A DNA stretch of 64,000 bases, taken from the NCBI RefSeq assembly GCF_000723165.1, contig NZ_HG322949.1, positions 5,463,790 through 5,527,789 on the forward strand, in the 5' to 3' direction. Made by a program: the position numbers and the translations under genes. This DNA comes from Janthinobacterium agaricidamnosum NBRC 102515 = DSM 9628 (GTDB taxonomy: Bacteria; Pseudomonadota; Gammaproteobacteria; Burkholderiales; Burkholderiaceae_D). Below, piece by piece: positions 50,390-64,000 of this stretch. The number at the start of each line of letters is the position of its first letter. Position 1 is the stretch's first letter. The notes under the pieces were generated by a model. That model was given only the letters and a program-made list of their open reading frames with translations. It did no database searches and was not told the origin of the DNA.

Positions 50390-50456
50390 GCGCGCATGCT
50401 TGCTTTGGTAAACAATAGTAAATAATTGATTCTATGAGGAAAAACTGAAGGAAAAC

Positions 50457-50506
50457 TGGTGCGGCTGGCTGGAATCGAACCAGCGACCCTTGGCTTCGGA
50501 GGCCAA
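50457..50506 (-). other. 3' half of tRNA-Arg(CCG): island attachment site
   Basis: On the minus strand this reads as an anticodon arm TTGGCCTCCGAAGCCAA (anticodon CCG), a variable region, the T arm GCTGGTTCGATTCCAGC, an acceptor strand CAGCCGC and ACCA. The D arm and 5' acceptor strand are missing. A 3' tRNA fragment of this length is the usual leftover at the far end of an integrase-inserted island. The intact tRNA should lie to the right, beyond this window. Confidence 0.85.
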
Positions 50507-50861: not shown

Positions 50862-51617
50862 TCACATACGGAATATATCCTCCACCATGTTGTCCAACTT
50901 CTCCTTAACCGCACGCCAACGCGGCAGCTGTCGATCCAGTGTCTGGTAAAACTTGGGACTATGGTTGTGATGCAGCAGGTGGCACAACTCGTGGAGTAGC
51001 ACATAGTCTATGCATTCCCGAGGCGCCTTGACCAGCAACGGGTTCAGCGTAATACGGCCGGCGGGCGAGCAACTTCCCCATTGCACTGTCATGAACTGGA
51101 GACGTGTTGGCGGAAGCTGCTTGATCCATCGCAGCGGTGCGGCAACGACAGCAAGACGTTCCGCGAACACATCACGCGCCCGCTGGCGATACCAGCCATC
51201 AAGGGCAGACTTGATCGTAGCCGGGACATGGCTCGGAACTGTCACAGTGATGAATGCGCCGCGCATGCGTGCTTCCACCATTGCCTCCGCATCGACAATG
51301 ACTTTCAGGCGATAACGCCGCCCAAGGTAATGCAGAGACTCACCGCTCACGTATTCGCGTGGGAGCACGTGAGCCATTCGCGCTTTGGCCGCAACTACGT
51401 GCTGACTGATCCAACGTGACCGCTTCTTCACGGCCTTCAATACGTCAGCCAAAGGGGCAGTGTCAGGCGCGTCCACCAACACTCGGCCGTCTGGTTCCAC
51501 ATGGATAGCAAGGCGCGAAGTAGTACGTGAAGGCTGCCGACGTAGGCTGAAAGCGATGATCTCATCACCATAGACAACGCGATGTTGAGAGGTGCGTTCA
51601 GACGGTAACGTACTCAT
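50862..51617 (-). CDS. YgjP-type metallopeptidase
   Basis: A 251-residue protein of the YgjP/M48-like group (DUF45). The zinc motif is HELCHLLHHNHSPKF near the C-terminus, preceded by the conserved MTVQWGSCSPAGRITLNP. Such genes often sit beside type I restriction systems, where they may process or regulate components. The start at 51617 overlaps the hsdR stop as ATGA, so it is coupled to the restriction operon. Confidence 0.9.
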   Translation of the reverse strand: MSTLPSERTSQHRVVYGDEIIAFSLRRQPSRTTSRLAIHVEPDGRVLVDAPDTAPLADVLKAVKKRSRWISQHVVAAKARMAHVLPREYVSGESLHYLGRRYRLKVIVDAEAMVEARMRGAFITVTVPSHVPATIKSALDGWYRQRARDVFAERLAVVAAPLRWIKQLPPTRLQFMTVQWGSCSPAGRITLNPLLVKAPRECIDYVLLHELCHLLHHNHSPKFYQTLDRQLPRWRAVKEKLDNMVEDIFRM

Positions 51618-54600
51618 CACTTGCTCAGCCCCACACGCGTAATCTGGATGACCTGCTCCACCACTTGCTTTGCATTGTCGAGACCCAGGGTGCCGAACAA
51701 CAGCGGCAACAAGCCCTTACGGATTGCCGCTTCGATATTCTGCGGGTTGAGCGAGTTTTCTGCGACTGCATCGCGAACTAAAGTGTCCATCGCTAAAGCC
51801 TGCTGCACCAAGCCGTCCACAGCCTCACTGCTATGCGCAGCAAAGGCATCCTCCCCCAGCACCAGACGAATCGCGCCAAAGTAGGCCTTGGCATGTGGTT
51901 TATCTGCCAAGGCCTCCGGCACGCCCGGTATCGTTCGAGACTCCAGTTGTTGCGCGAAGGCCTGAAACAGAGCGTACTGCTTTAGCGGATGATCGAACAT
52001 GGCCTCCGCCTCGGCAATGGCTTGCCTCAGCAGTTCACCGAACACCTTTTGCGCATAGGGGTCCTCCACTAAGTCCTGTTCGATAGTCTTACGCAGGCGG
52101 GTACGAATCATGTCCGTTTCATTACGCGTCTTTTCTTCAGACCAGTCTTTAGGGTCTTCGACCTTGCCCAACTGGTGCACCAAGTACACGCCCTCAGGTT
52201 GTCGCACTTCGGTTCCGATGACTTGCTTATCTACCAACTTACGGATTTGCTCTTCATAGACGCTATAGTCCACAGTCTCCATCGCGTCCCGGCGGGCGGT
52301 TTGCCGCAGCTCAGTGAAGAAGCGCAGGTCAGCTTTGTATCGCGCAATCAATTCCTCCGAGAAGCTCTTGTCTTCGAAAAAGCTGCGAGACGATAGTGCA
52401 GTCTGTAGACACAGACCGAAAGCGGTCAGCGCTTCATAGAAATCGTCACGTAATTTCTGACGTTCGTCATACTCTTCTCCATCACTGCCTTTCACAAACT
52501 TTGGGCTCAGCACCTGACGATACTGCTCGCGATCTAGCTTGTTGGAGACCGATTTGAAGAACGACCACAAGTGGTCATGCAACGTCGGCAGGCGCTTGTA
52601 TTCCGTGCTGAATTGGTGGTACAGCCCTTCGAGATCGCTGACATCAAAGCCGCCCTGCGTTCGGGTTTCCAAGTCCTGGTATCCACGGATTGCGGTGTCC
52701 AATTCCTTCAAGATGCCTCGGTAGTCCACCAACACGCCATACCGCTTAGCATCATGCAGACGATTTACGCGTGCCACTGCCTGTATGAGGTTGTGGCCTT
52801 TCAACGGCTTGTCAATATAGAGCACGGTGTTGCGCGGCTCGTCGAATCCGGTCAGCAGCTTGTCCACCACGATCAACAAGTCCGGAGCGCCGTCGGTGCC
52901 AAAGTCGTTGACGATCCGCTTTTCATAGGCCTCGGCGTCGTTACCGAAATTGGCCATGGTCTGCTTCCACCATTTCTGCACCTCGGGCAGGGTATCTTCG
53001 TCCACGTCAGCGTTGCCTTCTCGCGTGTCGGGGGCCGAGACCACTACGGCACTGGTCACCAGACCGGTATCGTCCAAGGCTTTCTTGTAGCGAATCGCAT
53101 CGAGCTTGCTGTCCGTCGCCATCTGGCCTTTTAGCCCCAGATCGAGCTTTTTGATGTTCTCGCTGAAGTGGGTAGCGATATCCCAAGCAATTAGCTCGAT
53201 GCGGTTAGCTGCACCGTAGATGACCCCCTTCTTAGCGAACTTTCTCTTCAAGTCAATGCGCTGGGCGTCGCTGAGGTTGCTGGTGATCTTCTCGAACCAA
53301 CGATTGACAGCGTCTTCGTTGATGTCGAGTTCCGGCATGCGTTCTTCGTAAAGCAAAGGGGCGACCGTTTCGTCCTCCACCGCACGCTGCATCGTGTAGG
53401 CGTGAACGATGGGACCGAACTTATTGGCCGTCTTCTCATTCTTCAATAAAGGGGTGCCAGTAAAGGCGATGTAAGCTGCTTTTGGAAGCGCCTTCTTCAT
53501 GCGCTCGTGAGTCTCGCCGCCATGGCTGCGATGGCCCTCATCCACTAGCACGATCATGTTGGCCGAGTCGTTCCGGCACTCGGGCAGCTTGGATGCTGTG
53601 TTGAACTTGTGCACCAACGTGAACGTGATGCGCTCTGTTCCGCTCCCGATGCGGCGGGCCAAATCTCGACCGGAAAGACTGCGGCTTTTCTCTCCGTCTT
53701 TCTGCGTGGCGATGCTGGAGCCAAAGGCGCCGCCAGTCATAAAATTGCGCGAGAGTTGGGTTTCCAGATCGATGCGGTCGGTCACTACCACCACGCGGCA
53801 TTCCTTCAAGGTTTCCACCAAGAGCAGCGCTTTGGTCAGGAACACCATGGTGAAGCTCTTGCCCGAGCCTGTGGTGTGCCACACAACGCCTCCCTCTCGG
53901 CCCCCATCCGGGCGCAATTGGCCAATGCGTGTCAGCAGCGAGCGGATGCCAAAGAACTGCTGGTAGCGGGCCACGATCTTGCCCACCTTGCGGTCGAAAA
54001 GCACATAGCCGCGCAGGAATTCTAGCAAGCGGGCGGGTGTTAGCAAACTGACCAACAAGCGGTCCTGTTCGGTTGCCTGCATAGGAGCGCTCCATAGTGC
54101 GTCAAAGTAGGTGGCCAGGGCGACAGGCTTGCCTTCAAACAGCGCACCGCGCACTTTCGGCGTCAGCGATGCGTTCTTGCGAGCTTGCATATGCGCCTCG
54201 TCGAACTCTTCTTCACGCCACTTGGCCCAGAATTTCGCGGCCGTATGGGTAGTGCCATAGCGTCCATCGGTCTGGCTAATGGAGAGCAACAACTGAGCGT
54301 AGGCAAACAAGTTGGGAATTTCGTCAGGCCGCTGATTGCGCAAGTGCTGGCTGATACCCTCGTTCACCATGGCCTTGGATGGGTGGCTACCGCCGCCTGA
54401 CTCAGGTCGCTTGGCTTCGATCACCGCCAATGGAATGCCGTTCACGAAACACACCACGTCCGGCTTGCGATGATATGTGCCTTGTGCGGCCAGCACTTCC
54501 AACTCTTCGGTCACATCCCAACGGTTGGCTGTCGCATCAGTCCAGTCGATCACGTGGATGGTGGGTTGGTGCTTCTTGCCGTCGGCCATAAACTCCGTGA

Positions 54601-54916
54601 CTGTGATGCCCAAGGCTAACTTACGATAGAGCTGTTCGTTAGCAGACAAAAGCCCTTCGGCAAGACTGAGTGCAGCCAGCTCCCGCACAATTTGGTCGAT
54701 GCCACTGGGCGACAGCGGATACCACTCACCCTTATATTCGTAGCGCCGCTCCTGCAGCACTTCGATTAACCGAGGCTTGAGTAACACCTCTCGCGTGCCG
54801 CCTCGCATAGCCAGCGCCTGTCCAGTAGTCAGAAAGTTCCATCCCAAGTTGCACAGAAGGTGCAATGCTGGCATATGGGCGCTGTATTGTTCGCGGGAGT
54901 TGGGTGTGATGTTCAT
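51617..54916 (-). CDS. hsdR: Type I restriction enzyme R subunit
   Basis: A 1099-residue translocase-nuclease. The N-terminal nuclease domain has a PD-(D/E)xK-like centre (PDVVCFVNGIPLAVIEAKRP). The helicase core has Walker A VWHTTGSGKSFTMVF at about residue 350, the DEAD-like box MIVLVDEGHRS and a later VARVNR motif VI. With HsdM and HsdS it cuts DNA lacking the system's methylation. It overlaps hsdS by four bases and the metallopeptidase by three. Confidence 0.95.
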   Translation of the reverse strand: MNITPNSREQYSAHMPALHLLCNLGWNFLTTGQALAMRGGTREVLLKPRLIEVLQERRYEYKGEWYPLSPSGIDQIVRELAALSLAEGLLSANEQLYRKLALGITVTEFMADGKKHQPTIHVIDWTDATANRWDVTEELEVLAAQGTYHRKPDVVCFVNGIPLAVIEAKRPESGGGSHPSKAMVNEGISQHLRNQRPDEIPNLFAYAQLLLSISQTDGRYGTTHTAAKFWAKWREEEFDEAHMQARKNASLTPKVRGALFEGKPVALATYFDALWSAPMQATEQDRLLVSLLTPARLLEFLRGYVLFDRKVGKIVARYQQFFGIRSLLTRIGQLRPDGGREGGVVWHTTGSGKSFTMVFLTKALLLVETLKECRVVVVTDRIDLETQLSRNFMTGGAFGSSIATQKDGEKSRSLSGRDLARRIGSGTERITFTLVHKFNTASKLPECRNDSANMIVLVDEGHRSHGGETHERMKKALPKAAYIAFTGTPLLKNEKTANKFGPIVHAYTMQRAVEDETVAPLLYEERMPELDINEDAVNRWFEKITSNLSDAQRIDLKRKFAKKGVIYGAANRIELIAWDIATHFSENIKKLDLGLKGQMATDSKLDAIRYKKALDDTGLVTSAVVVSAPDTREGNADVDEDTLPEVQKWWKQTMANFGNDAEAYEKRIVNDFGTDGAPDLLIVVDKLLTGFDEPRNTVLYIDKPLKGHNLIQAVARVNRLHDAKRYGVLVDYRGILKELDTAIRGYQDLETRTQGGFDVSDLEGLYHQFSTEYKRLPTLHDHLWSFFKSVSNKLDREQYRQVLSPKFVKGSDGEEYDERQKLRDDFYEALTAFGLCLQTALSSRSFFEDKSFSEELIARYKADLRFFTELRQTARRDAMETVDYSVYEEQIRKLVDKQVIGTEVRQPEGVYLVHQLGKVEDPKDWSEEKTRNETDMIRTRLRKTIEQDLVEDPYAQKVFGELLRQAIAEAEAMFDHPLKQYALFQAFAQQLESRTIPGVPEALADKPHAKAYFGAIRLVLGEDAFAAHSSEAVDGLVQQALAMDTLVRDAVAENSLNPQNIEAAIRKGLLPLLFGTLGLDNAKQVVEQVIQITRVGLSK

Positions 54917-56115
54917 ACCTGAGATTCCGTCCCAACCACGGGAAGCTTGACTCGACGTTTTCCAGTCAAAAGCTGTGACATGAGAGCGGCCTTTTCCCGG
55001 TTCAACAGCTCAAGACTCCGCTCGTGCTGACTGACCCAGATATTTGCTTTTTCCAACACGTCTGCAATGCGTTGCTGCTCCTCTAGAGGCGGGACCGGTA
55101 CCTGGCAAGCAAAAAAGTCAACCGGGCGAATATTCAGTAGGCCGTTGTTTCGAACTCCTGTATTGACAAGGGCACCCAACTGATCATGCAGATAGTCTGC
55201 ACGGAACAACTGCTCGTAGAAGCCCGCTTTCAAGCTCTTAGAGAGCTTGAAGCATACATAGACGTTGGGCACAACACCGCGCTCGTAACTCTTCAATGGA
55301 AAGACGCAACCGAACTCGAAAAGTTTGGAGTTCCCCTTGTTATAGGCGAACTCTCCTCGATCCAGCGCGATATAGTTTTCAACGCTTTTTCCAGCCATGA
55401 ACCTGCTGTACTTCTCATCTTGCCGCACAAAGCCACGGCCGGAAGATATCATCAGAACAGGCAACGCCTCATTTTCGTCCGCTCGTCGCTGAACCCGCTC
55501 AGAAATCTCGCTAATGGCGACCATGGGCCAGTCACCTCGGATGGCAGGCTTGATGAGCAATTGTTGTAGCAACGCAGTCAAATGTTGCCGACTGCTAGCA
55601 AGAAGGCGCTCCGACGCAACTATAGCTTGATTCCAAGTGGAGAGAATGCGGGCGATGCGACGCTGCTCCCCTGGTGGTGGAACTAAAATCGGCTGGTGAT
55701 CAATGTCTGATTTCTTAACATGCACTAACGTTGCCTTAAAGCCGTGCGAATGGGCCTCAATACGGTCAGTCACATGTTTTAACGCCCAATACAACCATTC
55801 ACTGTCAACGTTCTCTTTCGGCTGCACTTTAAATATGTGCTGATTAAGTACTCCTCGCGTGCCATTCCATATTGTTGGCCCAAAAGAGACGCCCTTGGTT
55901 CCAGCCCAAGAAAACAGCATTTGTCCAGGATCGACAAGCCAGCGCTTGTCCGGCACACCTGAGAAATAGTCGAATTTCTGGCCACCGTTCAAGTTCTGGA
56001 TTCTGATAATCGGTAACCCAGCAGTATCCCAATCCGTAGGCCCAAAGCCATGTCCGTTGCGCATCTCACAAACGTCCGCGACTGTTTTGGGTATCCATGT
56101 TTTCGGATGTTTCAT
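54913..56115 (-). CDS. hsdS: Type I restriction specificity subunit (two target-recognition domains)
   Basis: A 400-residue S subunit with two target-recognition domains, each followed by a conserved coiled-coil spacer (PPGEQRRIARILSTWNQAI after the first, PPLEEQQRIADVLEKANIWV after the second). It sets the DNA target of the complex. Its start overlaps the stop of the 57-residue ORF and its stop overlaps hsdR. Confidence 0.95.
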   Translation of the reverse strand: MKHPKTWIPKTVADVCEMRNGHGFGPTDWDTAGLPIIRIQNLNGGQKFDYFSGVPDKRWLVDPGQMLFSWAGTKGVSFGPTIWNGTRGVLNQHIFKVQPKENVDSEWLYWALKHVTDRIEAHSHGFKATLVHVKKSDIDHQPILVPPPGEQRRIARILSTWNQAIVASERLLASSRQHLTALLQQLLIKPAIRGDWPMVAISEISERVQRRADENEALPVLMISSGRGFVRQDEKYSRFMAGKSVENYIALDRGEFAYNKGNSKLFEFGCVFPLKSYERGVVPNVYVCFKLSKSLKAGFYEQLFRADYLHDQLGALVNTGVRNNGLLNIRPVDFFACQVPVPPLEEQQRIADVLEKANIWVSQHERSLELLNREKAALMSQLLTGKRRVKLPVVGTESQV

Positions 56116-56285
56116 ATATCCACCTTCTTACTCAACCACCGAGACTCAATCAAGAAGCCGAATGACATGCGCGTGCAGTAGTTTTCTGTTTCATAAAGCA
56201 AGAACTCGATATCCGTTCCTTGGCTGGGTTCTGCAGCAGCAAATTCGACCTGCGGCACCATGGTGGCTTGGCAAATTTCACTCAT
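56112..56285 (-). CDS. 57-residue ORF wedged between hsdM and hsdS
   Basis: Reading ATG at 56285, which overlaps the hsdM stop by eight bases, this frame runs to a TGA at 56112-56114 that overlaps the hsdS ATG. It encodes 57 residues beginning MSEICQATMVPQVEFAAAEP and ending IESRWLSKKVDI. The exact fit between two genes, with overlap at both ends, argues that it is translated. I recognise no family. It is acidic with a C-terminal basic tail and no membrane segment. A chance frame cannot be excluded. Confidence 0.6.
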   Translation of the reverse strand: MSEICQATMVPQVEFAAAEPSQGTDIEFLLYETENYCTRMSFGFLIESRWLSKKVDI

Positions 56286-57819
56286 AGCCCAACTCCTTCA
56301 GGTACACGGCCATCTGGGCCTCAAGACCCGCCAAATCGGCCTTGAGCTGCTCGCGCTCCCGGTACACGGCGATCAGATCAATTTCTGCCTCTTCCTCGAA
56401 GGTATCCACATAGCGCGGAATATTGAGGTTGAAATCGTTCTCGGCGATCTCGACCGGCGAGGCAAGGTAGGCGTATTTGTCTACACTCTCCCGTGTGAAG
56501 GCTGTGGTCAAGACGCGATGCAGGTCCGCTTCACGCAGATAGTTCTGGTTCTTGCCAGCTTCATAGTTGCGACTAGCATCAATGAAGAGCACTTTATCGT
56601 CAGATTTGTTCTTACGGAACACGAGCACCACAGCTGGAATGCCTGTACCGTAAAAGAGCTTTTCTGGCAGCCCGATTACCACGTCAAGCAGGTTTTCTTC
56701 GATCAGCTTCTGGCGGATACGCCCCTCGGCGGCGCCCCTAAACAGTACGCCATGCGGTACGACGACTGCCATTCGGCCAGTACCTGGCTTCATGGTTTCG
56801 ATCATGTGCAGGATAAAGGCATAGTCCCCTTTTGTACGCGGCGGTACTCCACGACGGAAGCGGCTAAACTTGTCGGCGTCAGCGCCCTCAAAGCCCCACT
56901 TTTCTAAGCTAAATGGAGGGTTAGCGACCACGATGTCGAAGTGTTTTAGGCTGGCAGCACTATCGAGCAGCTTGGGGTTGCGGATGGTATCGCCCCACTC
57001 GATGCGGTGGTTATCCTCGCCATGCAGGAACATATTCATCTTCGCTAGGGCCCAGGTGCTGCCTATGGCTTCTTGCCCAAAGAGCGCATACTTTCGTGAA
57101 CCAGTATTCTCGCGAATCAAGCGGCCACACTTCATGAGCAGCGAGCCTGAGCCACAGGTGGGGTCGCAAATTTCGTCCCCTTCCTCCGGAGCCATCAGGC
57201 GTGCCATGAGCGCAGATACTTCGGGTGGGGTGTAAAACTCGCCGGCCTTTTTACCGCTCGTAGAGGCAAAGTTCTTGATGAGAAATTCGTAGGCATTGCC
57301 GATCACGTCGAGCTGGCCCACGCGACTGGGACGCAAATCCAGTTCCGGCTTGGCAAAGTCTTCCAGCAGATGGCGCAAGATGTCGTTCTTCTGTTGCTCA
57401 TCACCCAGCTTATTGGAGTTGAAGCTGATGTCCTGGAACACGTCGCGCAGTTTAGTAATGTTAGCCTCTTCAATGGCATGCAAAGCCTTGTCGATACGCT
57501 CGCCATTGCCTGGGCTGTGCCGCAGGGTGTGCAGCGCGTAAAAACTGGCACTGGCTGGCAAGACGAAACGCTCGTTTTTGAGCATTTCCTCGATCAACTC
57601 GGGGTGGTCGCCGTATTGCTTCTTGTAAGCATCATAGTGGTCCTGCCAGACATCGGATACGTACTTGAGGAATAACATCGTCAGGACGAAGTCCTTGTAG
57701 ATGCTAGGGTCCACAGTGCCGCGGAAAGTGTCGCATGCGGCCCATACGGCGGCATTGATGTTGTCCTGGCTAACCGGCAAGCCTTGGAGAGGGGCAGGTT
57801 TGATGGCGATGTCGTTCAT
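56278..57819 (-). CDS. hsdM: Type I N6-adenine DNA methyltransferase subunit
   Basis: A 513-residue M subunit with the HsdM N-terminal helical domain (residues about 25-150), the SAM-binding motif DPTCGSGSLLMK and the catalytic NPPFSLEKWG. The FYTPPEVSALMARLM segment is typical. It methylates adenine in the target set by an S subunit. It lies 21 bases after the half-size S-like gene. Confidence 0.95.
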   Translation of the reverse strand: MNDIAIKPAPLQGLPVSQDNINAAVWAACDTFRGTVDPSIYKDFVLTMLFLKYVSDVWQDHYDAYKKQYGDHPELIEEMLKNERFVLPASASFYALHTLRHSPGNGERIDKALHAIEEANITKLRDVFQDISFNSNKLGDEQQKNDILRHLLEDFAKPELDLRPSRVGQLDVIGNAYEFLIKNFASTSGKKAGEFYTPPEVSALMARLMAPEEGDEICDPTCGSGSLLMKCGRLIRENTGSRKYALFGQEAIGSTWALAKMNMFLHGEDNHRIEWGDTIRNPKLLDSAASLKHFDIVVANPPFSLEKWGFEGADADKFSRFRRGVPPRTKGDYAFILHMIETMKPGTGRMAVVVPHGVLFRGAAEGRIRQKLIEENLLDVVIGLPEKLFYGTGIPAVVLVFRKNKSDDKVLFIDASRNYEAGKNQNYLREADLHRVLTTAFTRESVDKYAYLASPVEIAENDFNLNIPRYVDTFEEEAEIDLIAVYREREQLKADLAGLEAQMAVYLKELGYE

Positions 57820-57840
57820 AGTTCCGGATTTCCTAAGGGG

Positions 57841-58446
57841 TCAGTTAGAGGCCTGCACTGTGTGTGCTAGGCCTTCCGCGAGCGCCTGGAGTTGGAGTTC
57901 GCGGTTGTGAATAAGTTGTTGGAGGGTGTGGCGCTCCCGGCTGGCGAGGTCTACCAAGGCGACAATGCGGTGCTGGTCTGCTAGCGACGGCACGCACAAC
58001 GTGAGCGACTCCAGAACCGGGCGCCGAATGCTGAGCTGGCTACTGCCTTCAGCCGCTTGCTGAAGCTGGCGCTGAAACGGCGGTTGATTAATCTGCCATG
58101 CCAAGAAGGCGGGCAGTAGCGGAACCAGCGGAGCAACTTGGAGATGATAGAAATGGGGGCTGCAAACGGCCGGGCTAGGAGGCTCACCGATGCAAACCGC
58201 GTAAAAACGCGCGCCCTTGGAAACAAACAGGACGTCGCCAGCCTTGAGCCAGTCCGGATGCTTTCGGCCGGGCAACGCCGTGCGCGTGGCACTAGACCAA
58301 TTCACGCCACATGCGGGATCAACATCCTTCATCTGCAAGGCAAGCGCGCTACCGTCCGCCGACTCCTCAATGGAGCCCCGGAAGGGGTAGCCGCTCTTTA
58401 CGATTGCCAACGCAGCGAGCGGGAAAATTTTTGCATCAATGTCCAT
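57841..58446 (-). CDS. Half-size HsdS-like protein (single target-recognition domain)
   Basis: A 201-residue protein with one S-subunit domain: a TRD-like N-terminal part (GYPFRGSIEESADGSALALQMKDVD, AGDVLFVSKGARFYAVCIGE) and one spacer-like helix (PSLADQHRIVALVDLASRER). Full HsdS has two such halves; half-size proteins can dimerise in some systems. It is first in the operon, upstream of hsdM, in addition to the full hsdS downstream. A consensus -10 lies just before its start. Confidence 0.85.
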   Translation of the reverse strand: MDIDAKIFPLAALAIVKSGYPFRGSIEESADGSALALQMKDVDPACGVNWSSATRTALPGRKHPDWLKAGDVLFVSKGARFYAVCIGEPPSPAVCSPHFYHLQVAPLVPLLPAFLAWQINQPPFQRQLQQAAEGSSQLSIRRPVLESLTLCVPSLADQHRIVALVDLASRERHTLQQLIHNRELQLQALAEGLAHTVQASN

Positions 58447-59242: not shown

Positions 59243-59692
59243 TTATGCGAGGCTATTAGGGTTTACGCCCATCAGTTGAGGTGGTGGCTCACCAGTTACG
59301 ATCCGATGCACCGTTGACTGCGATACGCCGTAGTGCTCAGCGAGCTGTTCTTGGGTGTAGCGTGATGCGTGGTAGAGATGGTAAATCTCGCGCTTCACTT
59401 GATCTGAAATTTGCCGCGAGAAGTCCATCGGAACCAACGCCAGCATTTGGTTGAGGTACTGGATGTGCTGTCCGAGTGCAGCTTCTGTTTCGCGAATCTT
59501 TGTCATCAGACCAACGTATTGCAGCTGATCCTCAGGCGTGGCAATTCTGGGGGCCATAATCGACAGCTGGCTATACATATTGTTGCGGTGAAACTCCATC
59601 TCTTGAATGAGTTGGCGAATGCGAGCGATCTCTTGGCGCTGCACTTGTGGAGCCTGCGCGTAAATGGGCGAAAGGGCCTGTGGAAATGTCAT
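59243..59692 (-). CDS. Coiled-coil protein with C-terminal HTH
   Basis: A 149-residue protein. The N-terminal two thirds are helical and coiled-coil-like (PQVQRQEIARIRQLIQEMEF...). The C-terminal third is a resolvase-like HTH (YTQEQLAEHYGVSQSTVHRI). It starts at 59692 with an excellent AAGGAGA site. It is divergent from the nitrilase-SMC genes and could be their repressor or a DNA-binding component. I do not recognise a named family. Confidence 0.75.
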   Translation of the reverse strand: MTFPQALSPIYAQAPQVQRQEIARIRQLIQEMEFHRNNMYSQLSIMAPRIATPEDQLQYVGLMTKIRETEAALGQHIQYLNQMLALVPMDFSRQISDQVKREIYHLYHASRYTQEQLAEHYGVSQSTVHRIVTGEPPPQLMGVNPNSLA

Positions 59693-59843
59693 TATTTCTC
59701 CTTGAATAAATAGGATATCCAATTATTACATGAATATCCGAGTTATTCAACGATTTGTAAAGAATGGCTGTCTCAACCCTAGACCTATCGTGGAAGGAAA
59801 AATCTTCTAGTCGGAAGTCGACGGCAAGCGAGTGTGACAATTC

Positions 59844-61769
59844 GTGTACTTTTCATCTAGGCAAGATGCTATCCTAACTGCCGTCGGCTTATCTCGACCA
59901 TGCTCGGAAAATTTAAGGCTGGTACTTGGGCAATTCGCCATCGGTCGCCTGCCAGAATCAACAAAAAAAGTGAGGGATAGTTTGATTCAGGTCATTGAGA
60001 TTGACATTGGCCAGCTCGGAGTGCGGTTGCCGCGCGGGGAAGTCGGGATGGTCATTGCGCAGCCGTTTGTGGATTTCGTCCATTTGGAACCATTTCCCCT
60101 TGTACCCGCAGTCAGGGCTACGGCACTGGCCGGCATCGACGCCACGCTCGCTGTGGCCCGCGCCTGCGTGCACGGTGCCGAGAAGACTCATTTCACCATT
60201 TTTCCAGAATGTACACTGCCTGGCCTAGCCGGCTTCGACCACATCACGGCTGCGATGGCTGATGACACTTGGCCGGCAGGTACAGTCGTCATTGGAGGGC
60301 TCGAAGGCCTGACGCGGGAACAATTTAGCCAACTTGTCCAGCGGCCGGGTACAGTCTACGACGTTGTTGGCAGTTCGTTGGATCGCGTCCGTCAAGATCA
60401 ATGGGTCAACTGCTGTGCAACTTGGGTAAAGCTCGAGTCTGGCGAAGTTAGGTGCTGGATTCAGACCAAAATAGAACCCGCTGGTGTCGAACTCCAAGTC
60501 GACCACCAATCCATGTTCAAGGGGAAATCCATCTTCTTGTTTAAGGGTACCTATGCCGACAACCATGCGCCTTATCGTTTTGCAACTCTCATTTGCTACG
60601 ACTGGATTGGGGTCCGGGATCAACGTCGCATCTGGGAGTGGCTTCTGCAGGACATAGAGCAGACCGCAGCTGCGATTGAAGCACAGCTGCCGCTCACTTG
60701 GCTGTTCGTAGCTCAATGCAATCCGGGGCCATCGCATGCTTCTTTCATGAGTCAGGTTCAGCCGTTCTTCAATCCGGTGCAATTCCCTAGTGTACTTCGT
60801 GAAGGTACTTGTTTAGTCATGGCGAACGTGGCGGGGAATGCGGCTCCTGGTAGTGCAAATCAATATGGTCAGTCCGCTGTCATCTTCGCAAGCGACAAGT
60901 TCATGAAGCCTGAGAGTATGCCCACATACTGCGCTGGCGGCGAGTTCCAGAGACCTGGCAATCCATTGGAGAACTTCAAGGATGCGGTATTCCGAGAGCG
61001 CGGCGCGTGCATACACTCGTTCCGTCAACTAAACCCTATGGCCTTGCCGCCAGGCGCGGCAGGACGGCGATATGCACTTGCCGAGGCAACTGTGCATCCA
61101 TATCCAGGAACAGAGGACCCCCGCACTCCCTCAGGGCTTGTTCCTGCAGTAGTAAAGTGGGTCAACGACGAACTCGACGATCCCCAAAAGTCCTTACAAA
61201 TAAAATATCCAAATTTGCCGCTGGCCGACGCCGCTGCAACTGCTCATCTGCGAGCAGTGAACGCGCTTCGCTGGCTGCCGCCAGACGCGCTCAACAAGAC
61301 GGTGTTGATTGCGTCTCCAGCGGCGCGTAGCGTCCCAGATAAATGGCGGAACACTCAGTCTCAGGCGATCAAGCATGTCCTGCACAGCTTCTCAATCCTC
61401 GAAGTCGCCAAATATTCAGCAATATTCCATGGCAACGGAGCGCAGGCCACCATCATCAAAGGAGACACAAGCGTCGAAGTCGTCGCCGTGATCGGCCAAA
61501 GCCACGAGGAGTGCGACAAGCACGCTATGGACATACTACCGGACCATCGAGGTCAACTGCTTCTGGTAAGTCGCGACGAAGACAACACGTCATGGAATCC
61601 GCGGATGCGAACTTTGTTTGACCAAGCCGCCGAGCCGACCAAGGAACTCAACTTTACAGACCCTACCAGCGCGATTATTCGTGTCGGCTACCACGACTTT
61701 CTTCAAGCATACCAAGGCTCCGCGAACGAAACGGAACTACGAAAGGCACTCGATGCAGCAATCTCCTGA
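59844..61769 (+). CDS. Nitrilase-fold protein with unknown C-terminal domain
   Basis: A 641-residue protein. Residues about 90-370 are a carbon-nitrogen hydrolase fold with the catalytic triad Glu 122 (FTIFPECTLPG), Lys 209 (IQTKIEP) and Cys 251 (TLICYDWIG), and the closing segment LVMANVAGNA...GQSAVIF. The triad suggests amidase, nitrilase or transferase activity on a C-N bond. The last 240 residues are not recognised (VVAVIGQSHEECDKHAMDIL). The GTG at 59844 is the first usable start but has a weak ribosome site, so the N-terminus is uncertain. It overlaps the SMC-like gene by 17 bases. Confidence 0.8.
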   Translation: MYFSSRQDAILTAVGLSRPCSENLRLVLGQFAIGRLPESTKKVRDSLIQVIEIDIGQLGVRLPRGEVGMVIAQPFVDFVHLEPFPLVPAVRATALAGIDATLAVARACVHGAEKTHFTIFPECTLPGLAGFDHITAAMADDTWPAGTVVIGGLEGLTREQFSQLVQRPGTVYDVVGSSLDRVRQDQWVNCCATWVKLESGEVRCWIQTKIEPAGVELQVDHQSMFKGKSIFLFKGTYADNHAPYRFATLICYDWIGVRDQRRIWEWLLQDIEQTAAAIEAQLPLTWLFVAQCNPGPSHASFMSQVQPFFNPVQFPSVLREGTCLVMANVAGNAAPGSANQYGQSAVIFASDKFMKPESMPTYCAGGEFQRPGNPLENFKDAVFRERGACIHSFRQLNPMALPPGAAGRRYALAEATVHPYPGTEDPRTPSGLVPAVVKWVNDELDDPQKSLQIKYPNLPLADAAATAHLRAVNALRWLPPDALNKTVLIASPAARSVPDKWRNTQSQAIKHVLHSFSILEVAKYSAIFHGNGAQATIIKGDTSVEVVAVIGQSHEECDKHAMDILPDHRGQLLLVSRDEDNTSWNPRMRTLFDQAAEPTKELNFTDPTSAIIRVGYHDFLQAYQGSANETELRKALDAAIS

Positions 61770-64000
61770 AGTCTTGAGCCTGCCCTCAGAGCTACGCGGC
61801 GCGCTGTCGCTGCTTATGGCCGGAGCGACCTTCACAGAGGAGGTTCTTCGCGAGGATTGCTTACCATTGCTCTTAATGCAACGAAGTCATGCGATCACCG
61901 CATTTGCTGTTGGTGATGAGGCAGACTACGACCTGCTGTATGCGGCGTTCAAGAAGCACTACCTCAAGCGAACTGCGGAGTGGTCCACGAAAGACGTGTC
62001 ATTCGTGTTTTGCGTTCCGGAGAAAACCGCCGTTCAAGAGTCTTTCCGTTCGCGCGTCGAAGTCGACGTGTATTTCTGCAGAAAATATGTCATACAGTTG
62101 GACCAAAACCTAGCTGGCAGCCTCGCTAGGCTACCATTCCTACCGCTATCACCGGTTACCGCAGGAGCACAGACGCGACCGCCTTCAGCCCAGACGTTAC
62201 TTCGACAACGTAATTTGAAGGCGGAATTGGCAAAAGCCCTTGTTGTACCCTCGCAGAGTAGCGCGACCTCGATTTTTAGCGCGTGTCTTGAAGGAATCTA
62301 CGGCGCTCCAGACAAAGTTGCCGGGGCGCCCCCGGAGGCACACTCAGAATCCACCACTGAAGAGCGAGTGCAGGCAACACTCAAGTCGATTTCAATCCAG
62401 AACTTCCGAGCCTATCGTACAAAGAAAAAGTTTGAGCTTGGCTCAGCTGTCACGATTCTTTACGGTCCCAACGGATTTGGCAAAACTTCATTCTTCGACG
62501 CCATCGACTTCGCTGTCACTGGTGGCGTTGGTCGGCTTGCCAAGACAAGTGGAGGCTTGGCAAAGGCCGCGAAGCACCTAGACAGTGGCGATGAGTCGAC
62601 CTCGGTTACGCTTACGCTCGAGCGTGAAGGTGAGCAACACGTCATTTCTCGCGATCTGGCGGACCACAACACTGCACAGGTGAATGGAAAGGCCACCACG
62701 AGAAAAGATGTACTCAGCCTTCTGACTGGCGGAGCTCCAGCTGCGGCTGATCGTGTCGATAACATGGTAGCTCTTTTTCGAGCTACACACTTGTTCAGTC
62801 AAGACAGCCAAGAGCTCACCCGTGACGTTGCGGAAAAGTGCGAACTACCAGCGGACATAGTGTCACGCATGCTCGCATTCGAAGACTATGTCAGCGGTTT
62901 GAAAAAGACCGAGGACGTGCTGAAGCTCTCTCGGCAAGCGCTCACTGAGGCACGGAAGCAAGCTCAGAGCGCTCGCAGCGCCATGGACGCCGAGCGGCAG
63001 GAATTAACGCGCCTGGAGGGCGTTGCTTCTGCAGATGCGACGCCGGATGCGCTCAACGCTCGGTTTACTGAGTTAGAGCAGGCGATTTTGACCTCAGGGT
63101 TCAATATGTCCGGCATCAGCGCTCGCGATACTAGGGCTCTCCGTGCGCTGCTGGAATCTTCTGCAACTGAAGCTGTAAGCGCGCGCGCAAGGGTGTCCAA
63201 AGCCCTTGAGCACGTCACGGCCTTGAGAACGCTGCATGAGCAACTCGAACCAATGCGCGCGCAGCTCGAAGAACGTAAGGCGCTGGCCAAACGAACTGAG
63301 GCTAGTGCCAATGAGGCGTCAGCGCGCCTCGGCGCGCTGACGAGCGAGCTTGCGCAGTTCAAGACTCAGGAACAGGGCGAACAGAACCGACGTGATTGGT
63401 TCACATGGGCTACCTCCGTTCAGCCGGAGTATGCGCAGCTGACCGCACAGAACCAGACTCACGCTGAGAACCTATCTAGGCTCAACCAGCTTCTAAATCA
63501 GCAAAGGGAGAACCAGTCCAACGCGCTGAGTGCCAAGGAGGATGCGGCAGCAGCGGTTCGGCGCCTTGATGGCAACCTAAAGGCCGCTGAAGATGCGGCG
63601 GCTCGCGTACAACAGATCAAAGAGCAGGCAGGCCTCTGGGCGCAGGCAGAACCAAGATTGGTAACCATACAAACCCTCGAAGCAACGCTGCAGGGGTCAC
63701 CCGACGCGAAACGCGCGCGGCTCGGCGAAACCCAGCAAGCGGTCATGGCACAGGAACATCTTGTCGCTCGCGTAGAACGTGAACTCGGTTCAGCCAGAAT
63801 CAATGATACCAGTCTACAAAAGCTGATTGCCGAACTCCGAACTCACATAGATGGCGCGACTTGCCTGCTATGCGGTCACGACCATGGTAGCCAAGACGCG
63901 TTATTGGCTGCCATCGACCGACGCATGGCTCAAAGTGACCTCGTCTGTTCGTTTGCTGGCCGGATTGACCCTCTCAGTTTGACCCTCCCTCCAAGTCCTC
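61753..64000 (+). CDS. Rad50/SMC-like ATPase with zinc hook (N-terminal part)
   Basis: At least 749 residues, continuing past the window. A 220-residue N-terminal region of unknown fold precedes the ATPase. Walker A is YGPNGFGKTSFFDAIDF at about residues 237-250, the Q-loop is THLFSQD, a long coiled coil follows, and a zinc-hook motif CLLCGHDH lies at residues 704-711. The second coiled coil, signature and Walker B must lie beyond the right edge. Rad50-like ATPases bind or bridge DNA ends. The ATG at 61753 overlaps the nitrilase-like gene, with a GAAAGG site, so the two are coupled. Confidence 0.85.
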   Translation, partial: MQQSPEVLSLPSELRGALSLLMAGATFTEEVLREDCLPLLLMQRSHAITAFAVGDEADYDLLYAAFKKHYLKRTAEWSTKDVSFVFCVPEKTAVQESFRSRVEVDVYFCRKYVIQLDQNLAGSLARLPFLPLSPVTAGAQTRPPSAQTLLRQRNLKAELAKALVVPSQSSATSIFSACLEGIYGAPDKVAGAPPEAHSESTTEERVQATLKSISIQNFRAYRTKKKFELGSAVTILYGPNGFGKTSFFDAIDFAVTGGVGRLAKTSGGLAKAAKHLDSGDESTSVTLTLEREGEQHVISRDLADHNTAQVNGKATTRKDVLSLLTGGAPAAADRVDNMVALFRATHLFSQDSQELTRDVAEKCELPADIVSRMLAFEDYVSGLKKTEDVLKLSRQALTEARKQAQSARSAMDAERQELTRLEGVASADATPDALNARFTELEQAILTSGFNMSGISARDTRALRALLESSATEAVSARARVSKALEHVTALRTLHEQLEPMRAQLEERKALAKRTEASANEASARLGALTSELAQFKTQEQGEQNRRDWFTWATSVQPEYAQLTAQNQTHAENLSRLNQLLNQQRENQSNALSAKEDAAAAVRRLDGNLKAAEDAAARVQQIKEQAGLWAQAEPRLVTIQTLEATLQGSPDAKRARLGETQQAVMAQEHLVARVERELGSARINDTSLQKLIAELRTHIDGATCLLCGHDHGSQDALLAAIDRRMAQSDLVCSFAGRIDPLSLTLPPSP

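Follow-up and report, generated by a model that had tools for sequence, protein, structure and literature searches.

Does a predicted nitrilase gene that overlaps the gene of an SMC/Rad50-like ATPase represent a new kind of defence, or does it belong to a system that has already been described? The question is raised by the last part of a 64,000-nucleotide stretch of the Janthinobacterium agaricidamnosum NBRC 102515 = DSM 9628 genome (contig NZ_HG322949.1; hereafter, the window). As an initial annotation of this DNA had reported, the open reading frame (ORF) of a hydrolase (59844-61769, plus strand) shares 17 bases (61753-61769) with that of an ATPase, which begins with the ATG at 61753 on the same strand and is still open at the window end, and a helix-turn-helix (HTH) gene faces the two. 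That annotation proposed an undescribed system, a proposal to be given up if the pair matched a catalogued one. It does: PADLOC-DB 2.0.0 names the hydrolase LmuA (PDLC03850, E 2.9e-240) and the ATPase LmuB (PDLC03861, E 2e-263, profile positions 1-732 of 1213), both over nearly their entire available length, and a passage of a review lists the C-N hydrolase among Lamassu effector domains (PMC10586767). Because of these two matches, we assign the pair, judging from its sequence, to catalogued Lamassu of the nitrilase-effector kind; apart from a cut in LmuB, it is a plain member. Such systems are presumably the "Lamassu-Amidase" of DefenseFinder, which we take to be its name for Lamassu with a C-N hydrolase effector; our literature search met neither that name nor the term nitrilase alongside Lamassu.

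Most LmuA homologues inspected start with the TTG at 59982 or near it, and we use the numbering of the resulting protein of 595 amino acids (aa), in which Cys 251 of the long ORF becomes Cys205. Conservation was read from two alignments of LmuA, A1 (47 rows) and A3 (23 rows), and two of LmuB, A2 (46 rows) and A5 (20 rows). The features of LmuA are as follows.

59982..61769, plus strand: LmuA, predicted C-N hydrolase (nitrilase-fold) effector, 595 aa; longer frame from 59844
60207..60209, plus strand: Glu76 codon, predicted catalytic; 45/47 A1 rows (2 gaps), 23/23 A3 rows
60468..60470, plus strand: Lys163 codon, predicted catalytic; 47/47 A1, 23/23 A3
60489..60491, plus strand: Glu170 codon, second Glu of the nitrilase tetrad; 47/47 A1, 23/23 A3
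60594..60596, plus strand: Cys205 codon, predicted nucleophile; 47/47 A1, 23/23 A3

The predicted structure of LmuA has a nitrilase fold, with the nitrilase domain at about residues 16-360 and an additional C-terminal part at about residues 385-595; this is the arrangement expected of a Lamassu LmuA, an N-terminal enzymatic domain followed by a C-terminal one, encoded next to LmuB (PADLOC, the model and all 22 loci described below). The Glu-Lys-Cys triad that had been noted earlier is intact and conserved. Together with this conservation, the register of profile alignments, in which Glu170 pairs with the Glu following Lys in CN_hydrolase proteins and Cys205 with their ICYD-type Cys, points to a Glu-Lys-(Glu)-Cys active site. 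LmuA matched no Pfam family even at E 1, NCBIfam gave nothing above cut-offs for LmuA or LmuB, and the A1 profile found no chain at E 10 in a PDB copy that was not checked for the structure of DRT1, a defence protein that also has a nitrilase domain.

The ATPase likewise has the hallmarks of its family, as far as it extends in the window.

61753..63945, plus strand: LmuB, SMC/Rad50-like ATPase, first 731 of about 1206 residues; the C-terminal part (signature, Walker B) is missing
61960..62106, plus strand: MComp1-like middle-component region, LmuB residues 70-118 (PF20289, 31.9 bits, cut-off 27.3)
62464..62490, plus strand: Walker A of LmuB, GPNGFGKTS; pattern in 46/46 A2 and 20/20 A5 rows
63862..63876, plus strand: zinc hook of LmuB, CLLCG; CxxCG in 46/46 A2 and 20/20 A5 rows

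Pfam families above cut-off in LmuB include AAA_23, SMC_N and MComp1, among others, and the first two, with the PADLOC match, identify it as the SMC/Rad50-like ATPase of a Lamassu system. The zinc hook, which many though not all Lamassu systems have, had been recognized from the start. Walker B carries Asp-Asp (DDPV) in 45 of 46 A2 and 19 of 20 A5 rows, the sole exception being the window LmuB, which lacks that part. Parts of the review give a Glu-to-Gln change in Walker B as general for Lamassu LmuB (PMC10586767); this feature, which is usual rather than defining, is not found here, Asp standing in its place. The initial annotation had also allowed for a variant of the ABC-three-component (ABC-3C) systems, and the MComp1 region would fit this, in a form fused to the ATPase. 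In Lamassu the middle component is a small protein, LmuC, which some systems do without. MComp1 is present in most, but not all, of 120 listed LmuB homologues (precomputed Pfam column), one of which (P0143) is labelled "ABC-three component system middle component 1" by one source, and an N-terminal stretch of the length of the MComp1 region precedes Walker A in the 22 rows of a further alignment (A4). Thus, from these sequence features, a middle component seems to be fused to the LmuB N-terminus. A fold search with a model of LmuB residues 1-216 (pLDDT 80.2) gave only a slight hint of a restriction-endonuclease-like fold.

How regularly do the two genes occur together? Among 294 genomes of the family, LmuA (A1 at E 1e-20) was found in four and LmuB (P0172 at E 1e-60) in the same four; at the order level, both were found in the same 2 of 399 genomes. 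The window genome is included in each count, and G018, the other genome found at the order level, belongs to the family four as well. When a species-genome collection was scanned by pattern, 22 distinct loci emerged, the named ones including Massilia, Janthinobacterium, Herbaspirillum, Variovorax, Thauera and Bradyrhizobium as well as bins called Nitrospira, Acidobacteria, Zixiibacteriota and Desantisbacteria and a Methanophagales archaeon. An LmuB match lies directly downstream of LmuA in all 22; the match is nearly full length in 21, and in the remaining locus (L038) only the last part of LmuB was matched and LmuA is partial as well. Elsewhere LmuB is in two frames (L021) or has a stop within its frame (L036). 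Genes next to the pair do not recur among the loci, no recurrent third gene was found among 122 neighbours, and no LmuA relative was found in the viral contigs, plasmids and phages searched. Immediately upstream of the pair in Massilia solisilvae lies a gene (L017:7845-8843) that matches JetD of Wadjet type III (1.3e-102); over the whole set of 122 scanned neighbours, one matches JetC.

LmuB homologues appear in some sources as exonuclease SbcC, which could suggest a housekeeping or repair ATPase that happens to stand beside a metabolic nitrilase and has no part in defence. The patchy presence of the pair (4 of 294 and 2 of 399 genomes), the position in an island at a tRNA gene, the broken copies and the matches to Lamassu models all speak against that explanation, and we regard it as highly improbable.

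The window copy itself appears to be damaged. Homology to LmuB stops at 63945, and the frame beyond is not LmuB; what follows is a repeat.

63946..63999, plus strand: 54-base repeat at a contig end; other copies in the window's own genome (G000) at 2754829 (100%) and 5933582 (96%)

Each of the three copies of the repeat abuts a run of N; at the window end this is a join of 36 N. On its opposite strand, the repeat is in frame with a transposase-like ORF at the third copy (region L003), which has only HTH domains in Pfam and is presumably an IS21 IstA. Further joins of exactly 36 N were seen, one in L002 and seven in L003, and because of these repeated joins the record looks like contigs placed end to end. 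Within 3 kb, L003 holds its seven joins and one run of 404 N: here the single-contig record is a patchwork of short segments.

Reading further to the right, as had been suggested for completing the ATPase, meets the join at the window end, and the rest of LmuB was not found in the genome. When a full-length homologue, P0121, was compared with the genome (99.99% complete), its residues 1-734 were found here at 94% identity, and the only other match in the genome was to a P-loop in a second pair. Because the missing part is unique sequence, it is more likely gone than hidden in an assembly gap, and with the C-terminal ATPase half of LmuB missing from the assembly, the window copy is probably non-functional. 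Taking this further, an insertion-sequence event may have cost LmuB its 3' part, leaving a dead remnant, with no working Lamassu at this site. We consider this fairly likely: homology gives way to a repeat that stands beside N runs elsewhere, the LmuB residues after 734 were not found in a nearly complete genome, and in G018 LmuB is interrupted by a transposase-like gene and LmuA is in two frames. On the other hand, the break falls on an assembly join, the missing part may sit in an unassembled gap, and both the LmuA frame and the first 731 codons of LmuB are uninterrupted and conserved. The gene inside the G018 LmuB homologue (L077:8518-9633 and around) has a transposase integrase core (rve).

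What would an intact pair do? Published Lamassu systems are thought, according to sections of the review, to sense abnormal DNA via LmuB and to cause abortive infection via LmuA, whose activity was required wherever it was tested (PMC10586767). The DRT1 paper, in the portions used here, describes a nitrilase domain with a catalytic tetrad that is switched by assembly and acts in abortive infection, and it suggests ATP, GTP or NAD+ as the substrate (PMC13275509). We consider it likely that the system is a Lamassu-family (ABC-3C) defence in which LmuB is the DNA sensor and LmuA a nitrilase effector that arrests the cell. As in other Lamassu systems, LmuB would sense DNA that is abnormal, for instance ends or replication intermediates that come from phages or plasmids. 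The C-terminal part of LmuA would keep the nitrilase domain inactive within the complex. Sensing of DNA may then release or oligomerize LmuA, and Cys205, with Glu76, Lys163 and Glu170, would hydrolyse an essential molecule bearing an amide, amine or nitrile group; cell arrest and, as the literature on other Lamassu has it, abortive infection would follow. LmuA probably poisons the infected cell. The direct basis here is the family identity, the two-gene linkage, the predicted nitrilase fold, the conserved tetrad, the zinc hook and the fused MComp1. The same system might instead have a nitrilase that acts on nucleic acid or protein, by base or N-terminal amide hydrolysis, or that gives rise to a toxic product or a signal. 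C-N hydrolases mostly have small molecules as substrates, and on this general ground we find such targets or products rather unlikely, although the present data do not discriminate between them and an essential small molecule.

The genome record holds three Lamassu-like loci. Besides the window pair, a second pair lies on the minus strand at G000:C1:159388-164274 (L079:4389-9275), where a 588-aa protein (P0250) is encoded beside a 1039-aa LmuB-like ATPase (P0251); of 136 family genomes, the same 2 contain each of these genes. P0250 has no PADLOC match at 1e-5 and no Pfam match at 1e-3, and P0251 matches LmuB models only in part (best 7.8e-29). Relatives of P0250 occur in G062, on the Polaromonas plasmid pPNAP01 (NC_008757.1) and on a haloarchaeal plasmid (CP002989.1), each with an SMC-type ATPase gene beside it, which on both plasmids follows the LmuA gene. 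Glu81, Lys170, Glu181 and Cys208 are kept in all four proteins. Their alignment matches the window LmuA family with a probability of 97.1% (E 5.9e-11, score 92.8; at most 29.3 in 40 shuffles) and CN_hydrolase with 86.8% (E 4.3e-6, a comparison without shuffle control). In PADLOC, two of the other three proteins have no match at 1e-3 and one has a match at 7.1e-4; thus, from these searches, the LmuA of this second clade seems uncatalogued in PADLOC 2.0.0 (DefenseFinder was not compared). In the Polaromonas ATPase, MComp1 occupies the corresponding position with a score below cut-off (20 versus 27.3 bits), and the Pfam scan did not find it in the haloarchaeal ATPase or P0251. The third locus, G000:C1:529695-533484 (L094:3696-7485), is a complete type II operon, LmuA (DUF4297)-LmuC-LmuB. 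According to a part of the paper by PADLOC's authors, a type II Lamassu of J. agaricidamnosum DSM 9628 was assayed against phages (PMC8565338).

Taken together, the window pair is a real and well-conserved unit, already catalogued as Lamassu and probably truncated here. Nitrilases are considered rare in phage defence, and a passage of the DRT1 paper of 2026 notes that precedent for one is lacking (PMC13275509). The nitrilase-effector Lamassu would be such a precedent, with two genes, a range from Proteobacteria to archaea and a fixed tetrad, and what immune nitrilases hydrolyse can now be asked in a second system unrelated to DRT1. The value of the pair, which we rate as moderate, lies in this chemistry and in the second clade, which exposes a gap in current defence annotation.

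The pair is cargo of an island, and its setting beside a type I restriction operon, reported earlier, agrees with the PADLOC and Pfam matches. The surrounding features are as follows.

50455..50506, strand not assigned: partial tRNA-Arg copy of 52 bases that probably marks the left end (att) of the island; 94% identity with L004:7291-7342
51617..58446, minus strand: type I restriction-modification genes (PADLOC and Pfam matches)
51617-54916, minus strand: HsdR
54913-56115, minus strand: HsdS
56278-57819, minus strand: HsdM
57841-58446, minus strand: HsdS-like fragment
59243..59722, minus strand: divergent HTH gene, carried by the island but outside the system; HTH_31 and HTH_3 both exceed their cut-offs

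An intact tRNA-Arg at L004:7293-7368, equivalent to 64503-64578 in window coordinates, lies just right of the window; it and the partial copy enclose about 14 kb that holds a YgjP-like peptidase gene, the type I operon, the HTH gene and the Lamassu pair. The short specificity-subunit-like ORF upstream of HsdM, present besides a full HsdS, is perhaps a fragment or a half-subunit. The HTH gene does face the pair, as reported, but its proposed membership in the unit is ruled out: it has no match in the 22 named loci, nor in the other 293 of the 294 family genomes.

How does the system compare with those already known? With PADLOC Lamassu that have a C-N hydrolase effector, it shares the gene order LmuA-LmuB, and it differs in the window LmuB, which breaks off after 731 of about 1206 residues. 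With ABC-3C systems of the Middle Component 1 type, it shares the MComp1 region, above the Pfam cut-off in the window LmuB; however, three separate components are not found, the pair consisting of two genes with the middle component fused to the ATPase. The Lamassu type II of the same genome also combines an SMC-like ATPase with an effector partner, but its effector is of the DUF4297 type, its LmuC is a separate protein of 169 aa and its LmuB has 592 aa, compared with a fusion of about 1206 aa in the window system. DRT1 and LmuA have in common a nitrilase domain with a catalytic tetrad; in DRT1 this domain shares its polypeptide with a reverse transcriptase, whereas LmuA matched no Pfam family and, having no reverse transcriptase domain, is not a DRT1. 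As a tentative and rather doubtful extension, the nitrilase-effector Lamassu may form an old, distinct branch in bacteria and archaea that absorbed its middle component into LmuB, with at least two clades, that of the window and that of the second pair, whose LmuA escapes the 2023 PADLOC models; its nitrilase and that of DRT1 might have been recruited independently against one and the same essential metabolite, an amide or amine.
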